From: Candidatus Nitrosopumilus sp.
GTDB taxonomy: Archaea; Thermoproteota; Nitrososphaeria; Nitrososphaerales; Nitrosopumilaceae
Assembly: GCA_021268355.1 (NCBI GenBank)
Contig: JAJETY010000004.1
Span: 1-57,232 of the forward strand
Length of the DNA stretch: 57,232 bases
Reading direction: 5' to 3'
Made by a program: the position numbers and the translations under genes. The notes beneath the pieces were generated by a model. That model did no database searches, had not been told where the DNA came from, and was given only the letters and a program-made list of their open reading frames with translations. Of the stretch, positions 34,653-38,496 are shown piece by piece (position 1 is the stretch's first letter; each line of letters starts with the position of its first letter).

Positions 34653-34687
34653 TTATATACAACAAAATTCTTTGATTGGCGACTACT

Positions 34688-35488
34688 ATGATTGAACAGT
34701 TTTGGCTTATTCTTTTAGGCTTTGCAGGTGGAATTTTAGGTTCTATGATTGGATTGGGTGGCGGAATTATTGTTGTCCCTGTTTTAACATTCTTGGGGTT
34801 TTCTCCCACCGCTGCCGCCAGTAACAGTCTTTTTGCTGCTCTAAGTAATGCAACTGCATCGACTATTTCATACTCTAAACAAAAAAGAATTCACTTCTCT
34901 TTAGGATTAAAACTTGGATTACTATCAATACCTGGAACTGTATTTGGAGCAATTATTTCTAGTGATATTGCACCTGATATTTTTAAAATATTGTTCGGAT
35001 TTGTATTGATAACTTCTGCTGCATACATTTTTCTTAGAAGAAATCTTGAGTCCAAAGAAAAAATCATTTCAAAACAAATGATGATCTTTGTAATTGGAGC
35101 AAGCTTTTTTGGAGGAATAATTTCATCCTTTTTTGGAATTGGTGGAGGAATAGTATTTGTTCCATTAATGGTTGCGGGCATGGGAATGGCAATGAAAAGA
35201 GCTGCCCCCACATCTCAATTGATTTTACTTTTTGCATCTTTTTCTGGTGTAATGACTCATAGTTTACTAGGTCATCCTGATTTCATTCAAGCTGGATTTT
35301 TAGCAATTGGTTCATTTTTTGGTGGATTGGTTGGAGCAAGATTATCAATTGATATTAAAGAAAGATATTTGCAGATTTTAGTTTCAATTGTAATTTTAAT
35401 TGCCGCTGCAAAACTATTCTATGATTCCTTAATTGATTCTGCGATAGTGGGTTATAGCCTCAATAATCTTATTATGCTTTTATACTAA
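34688..35488 (+). CDS. TauE/SafE (DUF81) family permease
   Basis: An ~8-TM permease of the TauE/SafE family, which exports or imports sulfite, sulfoacetate or related anions. The internal duplication is visible: the first half has GGILGSMIGLGGGIIVVPVL and the second GIISSFFGIGGGIVFVPLMV, each the family's glycine-rich signature. ATG 34688 is chosen over TTG 34676. No sulfur-metabolism genes are adjacent, so the substrate is open. A terminator-like hairpin follows the stop. Confidence 0.9.
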   Translation: MIEQFWLILLGFAGGILGSMIGLGGGIIVVPVLTFLGFSPTAAASNSLFAALSNATASTISYSKQKRIHFSLGLKLGLLSIPGTVFGAIISSDIAPDIFKILFGFVLITSAAYIFLRRNLESKEKIISKQMMIFVIGASFFGGIISSFFGIGGGIVFVPLMVAGMGMAMKRAAPTSQLILLFASFSGVMTHSLLGHPDFIQAGFLAIGSFFGGLVGARLSIDIKERYLQILVSIVILIAAAKLFYDSLIDSAIVGYSLNNLIMLLY

Positions 35489-35533: not shown

Positions 35534-35568
35534 GGGAGACTAGTTGGCTCTCCTGTTTTATTATTTTC
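35534..35568 (+). terminator. GC-rich hairpin and T-rich tract after the TauE/SafE gene
   Basis: GGAGA (35535-35539) pairs with TCTCC (35549-35553), extended by one G-T pair, with a 9-base loop; a T-rich tract (TTTTATTATTTT) follows. It lies between two convergent genes and stands out by its GC content (GGGCGGGGGAG) from its AT-rich surroundings. A transcription terminator for the permease gene is the simplest reading. Confidence 0.5.
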
Positions 35569-36013
35569 TTGGAGGTTCCCTTTTAATTCTGTAGATGTTT
35601 CTTTTAGAAAGTACTATGGTCTCTCCATCATTATCTGTTGCTTCATAATCCACTATAATTTTTCCAAATTCATCATCAATCTCTTCTAGTTGTGATATTG
35701 TAAATTTTAATTTTAAAACTTGATCTGTGTACAACGGTTTGAGAAACCTCGTGTTTCTATTTTCCCAATTAGGATCCCCGTCCATTCCCAAAAATATTAG
35801 ATGATTTCCATAAATTTGACTAAGTCTTGTAAACTCTCCTTCCATTCTTGATAAAATTGCACGTCCAGAAACTATTTGTTCATCATTTTGTCTCTCTTCC
35901 AAAAATGCATTTCTTACTCTTGAAAAATTTAGATATTCTTCTAGTTCTTTATCTGAAATACTACATGTGGAATGAAATGTATCACCGACTCTAAATTCTG
36001 AAAATTTTTTCAT
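35561..36013 (-). CDS. MaoC-like hotdog dehydratase-family protein
   Basis: A 150-residue hotdog-fold protein similar to MaoC-like hydratases: KFSEFRVGDTFHSTCSISDK at the N-terminus, SGRAILSRMEGEFTRL in the central helix, then NTRFLKPLYTDQVLKLKF and ATDNDGETIVLSKRNIY strands. The catalytic Asp-x4-His of R-hydratases is not obvious (ERQNDEQIVSGR has Asp but no His), so it may bind acyl-CoA without hydrating it or have another activity. It lies 2 bases after the malonyl-CoA-reductase-like SDR and is surely co-transcribed. Confidence 0.75.
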   Translation of the reverse strand: MKKFSEFRVGDTFHSTCSISDKELEEYLNFSRVRNAFLEERQNDEQIVSGRAILSRMEGEFTRLSQIYGNHLIFLGMDGDPNWENRNTRFLKPLYTDQVLKLKFTISQLEEIDDEFGKIIVDYEATDNDGETIVLSKRNIYRIKREPPRK

Positions 36014-36015
36014 TC

Positions 36016-37782
36016 TTATCTTGATTCATCTACACAGAAAGTAACTTCTGATGATGAAGCTGCATTTTCTGAAACTAGGAAATTAAATGCGTCTGCAATT
36101 TTCTGGTTGTTCGATTCTACTCCTGTAACCGATCCTGGGAAAACTGTAAACATTCTGATTTTGGATTTTAAAACTTCACTAAGTTCTTGATTGACTGTAG
36201 TTGTAAATGGCCTCAATGCTCCTCTGAAAACTTCTACTTGTGCTCTTTGTGTACCTGTAACTTTTTTTCCTACAGGTAAGTCTGGTCCAATAATCATGAT
36301 TGCTCCTTTAGTGTCTTTGTATAATCTTGGATCTTTTCCTCCTCCCGGAACAAATTGTTCTAAAGCTCTTTGTGCAACAGTTGCAGGAGTTGAAATGAAT
36401 TTTGCGACTAACTCTTCCCATCCTGCTCTATTCAAATCAGTTAGATTTCCAACTTCTGGTAGTTTTCCAGTAATGTGAACTACAGCTAGAATTTCTCCAA
36501 TGTTTGTCTTTGCAGTATTTAGCCATCTTTCTACTTCTTCAGGATTCTTTATGTCGACAACATGTGAGTGGAATTTTCCACTGATTGAATCTTGAATTTG
36601 TTGAGGTGTTGATTGTGAAATGAAACATGCAACTTTTCCACCATTTTTCTCGATATGTCCTGCCAAAAATTCTACTCTTTCTGCATCTGTTTTATCTGTG
36701 GCATCAATAGTAAAGACAACTGATTTTCCTGTAAAATCTGGTTGGTGAACGCCTGGAGTTGTAGTTCCTATATGTGGTTTGACTGGATAAAAGACTCTGT
36801 CTCCGGGAATGACTTTACCGTTGAGAATCTTTGCAATTTCATCATCACACAAGTTTAGAACTGACTCTGCTACTTGTGATTGTGACAAAAATTCCCTATT
36901 TGCAATCATATGAGATGTATTGCTCTGGACTTTTTCTGCTATGGTTTGAATTTTGCTTAATAGATTGGTAAATGTCTCTGTTAATTTAGTAACATCTTTT
37001 CCATTTGCGAATTTTTCTGCCGTCTTTACAATTCCTTCTTTATCTACTCCTTCTGCTTGTATGCACTCTAACAAATCATCTTTTGCTTGCTCTACTTCTA
37101 CTGGGGTCAAATCTTCAAATCCACTAACCCTCATAAACTCTGCTGCAGCTTTTGGATAAACTGTTTTGTAAATTCTATCAGAATGTACTGGACCTGGATT
37201 TGTTGCAATTGATATGATTCCTTTATCAGTTAATTCCCATGACATACATTCTGCTAATCTATTTTTTGCACCCTGTGATGCAGTATATGGACTTCTGAAT
37301 CTGTAAGGCCTTTGCTCTAAAGGTCTTTCTTCAGTAAAGAATGTTGAAATTGTAATAATTTTACCTCCTTCTTTCATCACTTTTAATGCCTGCACTGAGC
37401 CCCAGAAGGTTCCAGTCAAATGGATTCCAATCGTACTCTTGAATTCATCTAATGGTGAATTTGGAAAACATGTTACTGGACCTGAAACTCCTGCATTGTT
37501 AATAATGTAATCTATGTTTACTCCTTCATTTTTTAGTGCATCAAACATTTCATTCATTGCTGTTTCATCTGCTACGTCAACTCCCGCAAAAATTTTGACT
37601 GTTGAATTTACTCCTTGTGGGATTTTTCCTTCAAGTTCTGATGCAGCTTCCTGTAATGGTTCTTTTCTTCTACCTAAGATAATCACACTTGCGCCATTTT
37701 CTACAAATTTTGTTGCAATTGCCTTTCCAATACCTGTTCCACTTCCTGTAACTAATGCGACTTTATCTTGGAATTTTAGCAT
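36016..37782 (-). CDS. Double-Rossmann SDR protein resembling the C-terminal half of bifunctional malonyl-CoA reductase
   Basis: A 588-residue protein (ATG 37782; TTG 37797 is less likely). The first SDR domain has the cofactor loop TGSGTGIG (12-19), NNAG, a Ser in ITISTFF, Tyr166 and PGPVHSDRIY. The catalytic Lys of YxxxK is replaced by Gln170 (YTASQ). A helical insert (~215-300) and the segment NGKVIPGDRVFYPVKP lead to a second, degenerate Rossmann domain (~315-585; GKSVVFTIDATDKTDAERV). By eye this layout matches the C-terminal half of Chloroflexus malonyl-CoA reductase, including the insert. Malonyl-CoA reduction is inference. It pairs with a MaoC-like gene. Confidence 0.75.
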   Translation of the reverse strand: MLKFQDKVALVTGSGTGIGKAIATKFVENGASVIILGRRKEPLQEAASELEGKIPQGVNSTVKIFAGVDVADETAMNEMFDALKNEGVNIDYIINNAGVSGPVTCFPNSPLDEFKSTIGIHLTGTFWGSVQALKVMKEGGKIITISTFFTEERPLEQRPYRFRSPYTASQGAKNRLAECMSWELTDKGIISIATNPGPVHSDRIYKTVYPKAAAEFMRVSGFEDLTPVEVEQAKDDLLECIQAEGVDKEGIVKTAEKFANGKDVTKLTETFTNLLSKIQTIAEKVQSNTSHMIANREFLSQSQVAESVLNLCDDEIAKILNGKVIPGDRVFYPVKPHIGTTTPGVHQPDFTGKSVVFTIDATDKTDAERVEFLAGHIEKNGGKVACFISQSTPQQIQDSISGKFHSHVVDIKNPEEVERWLNTAKTNIGEILAVVHITGKLPEVGNLTDLNRAGWEELVAKFISTPATVAQRALEQFVPGGGKDPRLYKDTKGAIMIIGPDLPVGKKVTGTQRAQVEVFRGALRPFTTTVNQELSEVLKSKIRMFTVFPGSVTGVESNNQKIADAFNFLVSENAASSSEVTFCVDESR

Positions 37783-37879: not shown

Positions 37880-38116
37880 ATGCATGACACAGAGCCAGAT
37901 ACATTTGTCCTTCAAACATGGCCTGAAAAATTTAGCAGTATGTTAAAAGAGATCGGAGTAGATTCTGAGTCCAAAGAAATTGGAACCGATGAAGTTGAAA
38001 AAGGTGATTATTACAGTAGATATTTTGCTCATACAGCAAGAATGATAACAAATAGAGGTTGTCTTGATGTCAAGAACTCTAACATTGACGTTATTCAAAT
38101 TATTCAGAAGGGGTAA
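37880..38116 (+). CDS. Hypothetical protein, 78 aa
   Basis: A small acidic protein (VLQTWPEKFSSMLKEIGVD, EVEKGDYYSRYFAHTARM) without recognised motif. It has its own start ATG 37880, divergent from the SDR gene by 97 bases, and a 125-aa gene follows after 2 bases. The two are a tight pair on the plus strand and probably act together. Confidence 0.65.
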   Translation: MHDTEPDTFVLQTWPEKFSSMLKEIGVDSESKEIGTDEVEKGDYYSRYFAHTARMITNRGCLDVKNSNIDVIQIIQKG

Positions 38117-38118
38117 AA

Positions 38119-38496
38119 ATGCAAGATCCTAATCCAATGCCATGGGGTGCTCTAGATAGATATCAAGCACACTTTATTGTAAGAAAAGATACTGGTGTGA
38201 ATGTTGGAAACTTTGTTGCAAAAACACAATTAAAAACTAAAGGTCATTTTGCAGCAAAAACTGTTGTAAGTGTAACTTGGAATGGACCAGGTGCTCTTGC
38301 CGAAAAACTCAGAAATGATTCTGAATTAAATGAAATGATTGCAAAACAATCTGTCAAAGATGCTACCATATATGTAGAACCTACAGAGAATGCTATTCGA
38401 ATTAGAAGTAAATGGGATAATCACCTTGCATTTGGAATTACAAAAGATCTTTTTGATATCTATGACCGAATAGCTGGCCACATAAAATCAATTTAG
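38119..38496 (+). CDS. Hypothetical protein, 125 aa
   Basis: An alpha/beta protein beginning MQDPNPMPWGALDRYQAHF, with strands KTVVSVTWNGPG and DATIYVEPTENAIRIRS and a closing helix. There are no cysteines. No family is recognised. It follows the 78-aa gene by 2 bases and its last 4 bases overlap the convergent tRNA endonuclease gene. Confidence 0.65.
   Translation: MQDPNPMPWGALDRYQAHFIVRKDTGVNVGNFVAKTQLKTKGHFAAKTVVSVTWNGPGALAEKLRNDSELNEMIAKQSVKDATIYVEPTENAIRIRSKWDNHLAFGITKDLFDIYDRIAGHIKSI

Follow-up and report, generated by a model that had tools for sequence, protein, structure and literature searches.

We favor the reading, at a probability of roughly 0.6, that a gene on the minus strand of a 57,232-nucleotide stretch of DNA from Candidatus Nitrosopumilus sp. 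(the window) specifies a stand-alone protein related to one half of the bifunctional bacterial malonyl-CoA reductase (MCR), and most likely the NADPH-dependent MCR of the thaumarchaeal 3-hydroxypropionate/4-hydroxybutyrate cycle. It is the best candidate seen in this analysis for the missing MCR gene, a judgment made without an enzyme assay. Membership in the MCR family is supported by fold and motif, but some defining features are lacking, namely the position of the catalytic Lys, the sequence of the second domain, and the fused bifunctional layout, and the alignment shows no Arg to match Arg1164.

In publications up to 2020, no gene could be assigned to MCR in either N. maritimus or related organisms (PMC6038301, PMC4510362, PMC6964070), and MCR does not figure in a thaumarchaeal-cycle marker set from 2026 (PMC12894919). 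An earlier, sequence-only reading of the window, which proposed this gene as an MCR candidate, had described the thaumarchaeal MCR as unassigned, and this held within the open-access literature searched (PMC6038301, PMC6964070, PMC12894919); we treat it as such here, while an assignment in subscription papers could have been missed. The succinyl-CoA reductase and acryloyl-CoA reductase steps are also without genes (PMC6038301). For Ca. Nitrosocaldus cavascurensis, a homologue of the bifunctional Chloroflexus enzyme was not found by the authors, SDRs of about 30% identity were noted as possible semialdehyde reductases, and the Fe-ADH malonate semialdehyde reductase is missing (PMC5797428).

Architecture of the candidate gene and protein

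The candidate ORF is one intact frame. The features of the gene and of its closest neighbor are as follows.

36016..37782, minus strand: candidate stand-alone half malonyl-CoA reductase gene, encoding a 588-aa tandem-SDR protein (ORF, orthologues, fold)
37177..37782, minus strand: catalytic SDR core, residues 1-202, with TGSGTGIG, GRR (NADPH-type), and NNAG (motifs, Pfam, model)
37258..37344, minus strand: active-site stretch, residues 147-175, with T147, F149, Y160-xx-R163-xx-Y166, Q170, and K173 (alignment; MCR residue roles from PMC10470521)
37168..37197, minus strand: PGPVHSDRIY, residues 196-205, in which R203 is the counterpart of MCR Arg215 (N half) and Arg785 (C half) (alignment)
36823..37176, minus strand: helical insert, residues 203-320, corresponding to the MCR C-half extra domain and containing the invariant R218 (model, hhalign)
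36019..36735, minus strand: second Rossmann domain, residues 350-588, in place of MCR SDR2/SDR4 (model, Foldseek, hhalign)
35561..36013, minus strand: MaoC-like hotdog protein of 150 aa, 2 bp downstream of the candidate (neighborhood, fold matches)

The sequence-only reading had given a 588-aa frame at 36016-37782 without a strand, and had named the motifs TGSGTGIG (residues 12-19), NNAG (95-98), PGPVHSDRIY (196-205), and Tyr-xxx-Gln (Tyr166-xxx-Gln170); all of these held, the strand being minus. Plain Pfam and NCBIfam scans identify the protein as an SDR and nothing more specific: Pfam places an SDR domain at 7-203, and the matches in NCBIfam, all under their cut-offs, are to SDR families only. 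The PF02774 semialdehyde dehydrogenase domain of the Sulfolobales-type MCR was not found in the protein by Pfam, and the protein is a single module of 588 aa that does not meet the two-half fusion of bacterial MCR (about 1,220 aa).

Fold and sequence comparison with the MCR halves

An AlphaFold model of the candidate, built on 42 archaeal orthologue sequences (pLDDT 89.4, pTM 0.89), comprises an SDR core (residues 1-202) followed by helices (202-320) and then by another Rossmann domain (approximately 350-588), which is the order of domains that had been claimed. When this model was compared with the PDB by Foldseek, ranks 1-24 were all MCR C halves, N halves, or whole MCR, with E values from 1.4e-28 to 4e-22 and TM(query) of 0.69-0.73 spanning both domains; the best target-normalised TM (0.80) was obtained with the MCR N half. 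Single SDRs reached a TM of about 0.39 and covered one domain only. The predicted model thus meets the half-MCR fold (SDR, extra helices, and second SDR), and the earlier claim of the double-Rossmann layout of the MCR halves held, the best matches being MCR halves and not ordinary SDRs. The Foldseek search covered solved structures only, and a still nearer match might exist in an uncharacterised tandem-SDR family.

The next Foldseek class after MCR was the MFE-2 tandem SDR 2et6 (E 1.3e-19, TM 0.56), with an E value nine orders of magnitude weaker than that of the top MCR match. This second-best fold class supports an alternative under which the candidate would be a (3R)-hydroxyacyl-CoA dehydrogenase-like tandem SDR paired with a MaoC-like hydratase, comparable to peroxisomal MFE-2 or polyhydroxyalkanoate supply; the neighboring hotdog protein (35561-36013, minus strand), whose closest folds are MaoC-like proteins and R-hydratases, also speaks for it. 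We consider this alternative very unlikely. While peroxisomal MFE-2 (2et6) shares the two SDR domains in tandem, it superposes more poorly (TM 0.56 versus 0.73 for MCR), and it is a canonical SDR enzyme, whereas the canonical Lys is replaced in the candidate, which does not meet the Ser-Tyr-Lys set of (3R)-hydroxyacyl-CoA dehydrogenase tandem SDRs. In addition, the invariant YxxRxxY suggests a substrate with a carboxylate end, and the hotdog neighbor adjoins the candidate only in part of the window's family and is not retained beyond it.

With regard to the stand-alone half-MCR reading, the bacterial MCR C half (Chloroflexus 8j2c/8a30, Roseiflexus 8hi5, 6k8s) is like the candidate in having two tandem SDR domains with a helical extra domain, as well as Ser/Thr, YxxRxxY, and PGPxxxDR. 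By contrast, the candidate is a stand-alone protein of 588 aa with about 18% identity to the C half, a smaller extra domain, Lys and Gln swapped at Tyr+4/+7, no match to Arg1164, and a second domain nearer to generic SDRs. The MCR N half (8aew, 8hi6, 6k8v), a malonate semialdehyde reductase, shares the fold, the Thr, YxxRxxY, and the SDRI motif, but it retains the Lys, its loop and insert are shorter, and its Tyr+7 residue is mostly Leu. As a separate observation, Chloroflexi bacterium OHK40 apparently encodes a stand-alone 689-aa C half in addition to a full-length MCR (L118, L092), another locus (L096) also resembles a stand-alone C half, and bifunctional MCR genes (L071-L150) occur beyond Chloroflexota in MAGs labelled Gemmatimonadetes, Chlorobiales, Proteobacteria, and a Planctomycete.

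Sequence comparisons gave a more limited signal. The archaeal profile aligned by hhalign with both MCR-C (score 225, 488 columns) and MCR-N (score 202, 431 columns), collinearly across both domains. A generic SDR profile beat the MCR profiles on the SDR core of the candidate, and the archaeal second domain scored 122 against generic SDRs versus 42 and 39 against the MCR second domains, a comparison of little power because the two MCR second domains score only 32 with each other. With MCR HMMs, ordinary SDRs reach scores equal to that of the candidate, and MCR profiles hence do not single the gene out; the best single-stretch phmmer score against the PDB was likewise no better to MCR than to ordinary SDRs, and a sequence search by itself would therefore have missed the MCR relation. 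Searches of plasmids by tblastn with the candidate protein or an MCR segment yielded ordinary SDRs only.

In an SDR-core tree that included 34 ordinary SDRs, the archaeal, MCR-N, and MCR-C sequences formed one branch (support 99/96). Neither a grouping of the archaeal branch with the N half nor one with the C half was rejected, which leaves the order unresolved. Removal of the columns from residue 144 onward abolished this branch along with the grouping of MCR-N with MCR-C; the sequence signal therefore resides in the active-site half. Convergence in that half remains possible and cannot be excluded by sequence alone, although the shared two-domain fold argues against it.

Active-site residues and proposed mechanism

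Structures and simulations of the Roseiflexus MCR attribute the binding of malonyl or semialdehyde to Tyr743, Arg746, and Tyr749 (YxxRxxY, a motif also found in the N half) and further to Ser731 or Thr165, Arg215, Arg799, and Arg1164, with Arg785 of the C half as the important counterpart of Arg215; Lys753 is among the residues that bind the cofactor, Lys753 mutants are dead, and Lys182 of the N half is part of a proton relay (PMC10470521). We compared these positions with an alignment of 42 archaeal orthologues, each at least 43% identical to the window protein, and with 80 bacterial MCR loci that were fetched and aligned for both halves. T147, Y160, R163, Y166, and R203 are invariant (42/42), such that YxxRxxY with its preceding Ser/Thr is present in every orthologue, and R38/R39 are also kept in all 42. 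F149, R163, P198, and R203 are kept in 18/18 archaeal, 19/19 MCR-C, and 8/8 MCR-N rows; F149 and P198 follow the MCR pattern and are seldom or never seen in ordinary SDRs, none of which (0/34) carries Y..R..Y...[KQ]. The invariant R218 lies near Arg799 of MCR but about two residues out of register, and no Arg matching Arg1164 was found in the alignment, where Arg1164 falls near D/E536, just past the aligned end.

The catalytic Lys of YxxxK is absent from all 42 orthologues, which have Gln (Gln170) at Tyr+4 and Lys (K173) three residues further, at Tyr+7, whereas in MCR C halves the order is reversed (73/73), Tyr+4 being Lys and Tyr+7 being Gln. MCR N halves carry Lys at Tyr+4 and mostly Leu at Tyr+7, and ordinary SDRs carry Lys at Tyr+4 and nearly always a hydrophobic residue at Tyr+7; in neither group was Lys or Gln ever found at Tyr+7. 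This fixed exchange links the candidate with the C half, points to a relocated function and, in our judgment, is more telling than a mere loss of lysine. The Lys-to-Gln change named by the sequence-only reading thus held and is more aptly called a Lys/Gln swap; its claim of best likeness to the C half held for loop length (in both the candidate and the C half, the first Tyr of the motif lies 12-13 residues after the Ser/Thr), for the Gln/Lys pair, and for the hhalign scores (225 versus 202).

An N-half-like activity, in which the candidate would reduce a semialdehyde (of malonate or succinate) rather than a CoA thioester and so yield the hydroxy acid, is an unlikely alternative. It is supported by YxxRxxY, Thr147, and the SDRI motif, all common to the MCR N half, by the top target-normalised TM (0.80) with the N half, and by the lack of Fe-ADH in Ca. 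Nitrosocaldus cavascurensis (PMC5797428) and in ammonia-oxidizer family f2, which carries the candidate gene; six f2 genomes tested gave no strong Fe-ADH match, only weak hits. On the other hand, the relay Lys of the N half (Lys182) is Gln in the candidate, loop length and the Tyr+7 position resemble the C half, and tested genomes of families f1 and f3 already have an Fe-ADH semialdehyde reductase. Given the absence of a strong Fe-ADH in f2, it is possible that the candidate performs the second reduction too in that family.

For a stand-alone half-MCR, we infer a mechanism in which NADPH would be bound by the first domain via R38/R39, the malonyl carboxylate would be held by R163, R203, and perhaps R218, and hydride would be delivered to the thioester carbonyl. 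By analogy with the proposal for Roseiflexus Tyr743-Arg746, the leaving CoA thiolate may be protonated by the Y160-R163 pair. K173, one helix turn past Q170, would replace the usual SDR lysine on the cofactor side; that it reaches the cofactor is an inference for which no coordinates were measured. Malonate semialdehyde would then be handed to a separate semialdehyde reductase. The same enzyme might also reduce succinyl-CoA, as succinyl-CoA reductase is likewise unassigned.

A related alternative, that the candidate mainly serves the cycle as succinyl-CoA reductase or as acryloyl-CoA reductase, draws on the lack of genes for both steps (PMC6038301) and on the fact that succinyl-CoA is a carboxylate-ended CoA thioester one carbon longer. 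It appears unlikely, as the nearest relatives by fold and motif are the MCR halves, whose chemistry differs from acryloyl-CoA reduction. A bolder version of the half-MCR reading is that the gene represents a third, stand-alone lineage of the bacterial MCR superfamily near the single module that preceded the duplication in bacteria, with Lys and Gln exchanged by one helix turn, and that one promiscuous malonyl-CoA and succinyl-CoA reductase closes two steps; we consider this version clearly less likely than not.

Distribution, gene neighborhood, and other candidate enzymes

Full-length orthologues (43-95% identity to the window protein) are found in all ammonia-oxidizer families sampled, and the gene is present in essentially all ammonia-oxidizing archaea sampled rather than patchy. 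A sample of 300 genomes of the phylum gave a near full-length match in 50, all within the window's own order. The class sample gave the gene in 184 of 250 genomes, with the listed matches in families f1, f2, f3, and f57; the four listed f1 genomes without a match are drafts of 80-210 contigs. In this class sample, 174 of the 250 genomes gave a match to archaeal amoA (PF12942), again in these four families, and the candidate gene and amoA each occur in 32 of 62 genera. Within this order, the gene is missing from the listed genomes of families f56 and f58-f62, most of them >90% complete, and those listed in the amoA search also lack amoA. Among 26 relatives outside the ammonia oxidizers, a profile search turned up no double-SDR relative, only ordinary SDR frames of 90-370 aa matching at most residues 1-204. 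The gene is kept in ammonia oxidizers of 0.8 Mb (G373, G396). The distribution check on the earlier MCR assignment hence showed a gene that is universal in ammonia-oxidizing archaea and absent in the listed sister families without amoA; the assignment is supported by the checks that could be run, with activity untested. Because ammonia oxidizers are all autotrophs of one clade, co-distribution cannot separate MCR from other core functions.

The scanned neighbors vary between lineages (purine synthesis, SRP, sulfite/nitrite reductase), and the neighborhood is therefore uninformative as a functional clue. Two adjacencies were observed nonetheless: a TauE/SafE permease (34676-35488, plus strand), convergent with the candidate, is kept beside it across distant ammonia-oxidizer families, and a pair of plus-strand ORFs, 37880-38116 (78 aa) and 38119-38496 (125 aa), neither with a Pfam match, is kept beside the gene in many ammonia oxidizers.

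The MCR of Sulfolobales is a member of the aspartate-semialdehyde dehydrogenase family, an unrelated protein family with the same proposed reaction and pathway. This background, together with PF02774 genes in every ammonia oxidizer tested, supports the alternative that the universal aspartate-semialdehyde dehydrogenase has two substrates and doubles as the MCR, and that the SDR protein has another role in the core metabolism of ammonia oxidizers. We regard this as unlikely, since the PF02774 genes number exactly two in all ammonia oxidizers tested, the same two as in relatives without amoA or the candidate, and since the malonate-binding motif kept by the SDR protein would be left unexplained. 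An extra Sulfolobales-type MCR paralogue was also sought as a candidate; none was found in the ammonia oxidizers tested, in which the PF02774 count is two.

Finally, the KEGG candidate for succinyl-CoA reductase is an ALDH family member. In genus g9, all 8 of 8 genomes, one of them a 99%-complete single contig, lack ALDH (PF00171); the candidate gene is carried by g9 and by several other ALDH-lacking genomes. Besides g9, the ammonia oxidizers without a PF00171 match are G108, G192, G353, G371, G373, G375, and G396. As ALDH is missing in several complete ammonia oxidizers, it is ruled out as a CoA reductase common to all ammonia oxidizers.

If the assignment of the candidate as a stand-alone half-MCR is true, a universal gene would make the MCR step of ammonia-oxidizing archaea assayable, usable as a marker, and triable in 3-hydroxypropionate engineering. 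It would also mean that one enzyme superfamily connects the archaeal and bacterial 3-hydroxypropionate pathways, and that the SDR active site has undergone an unusual rewiring.
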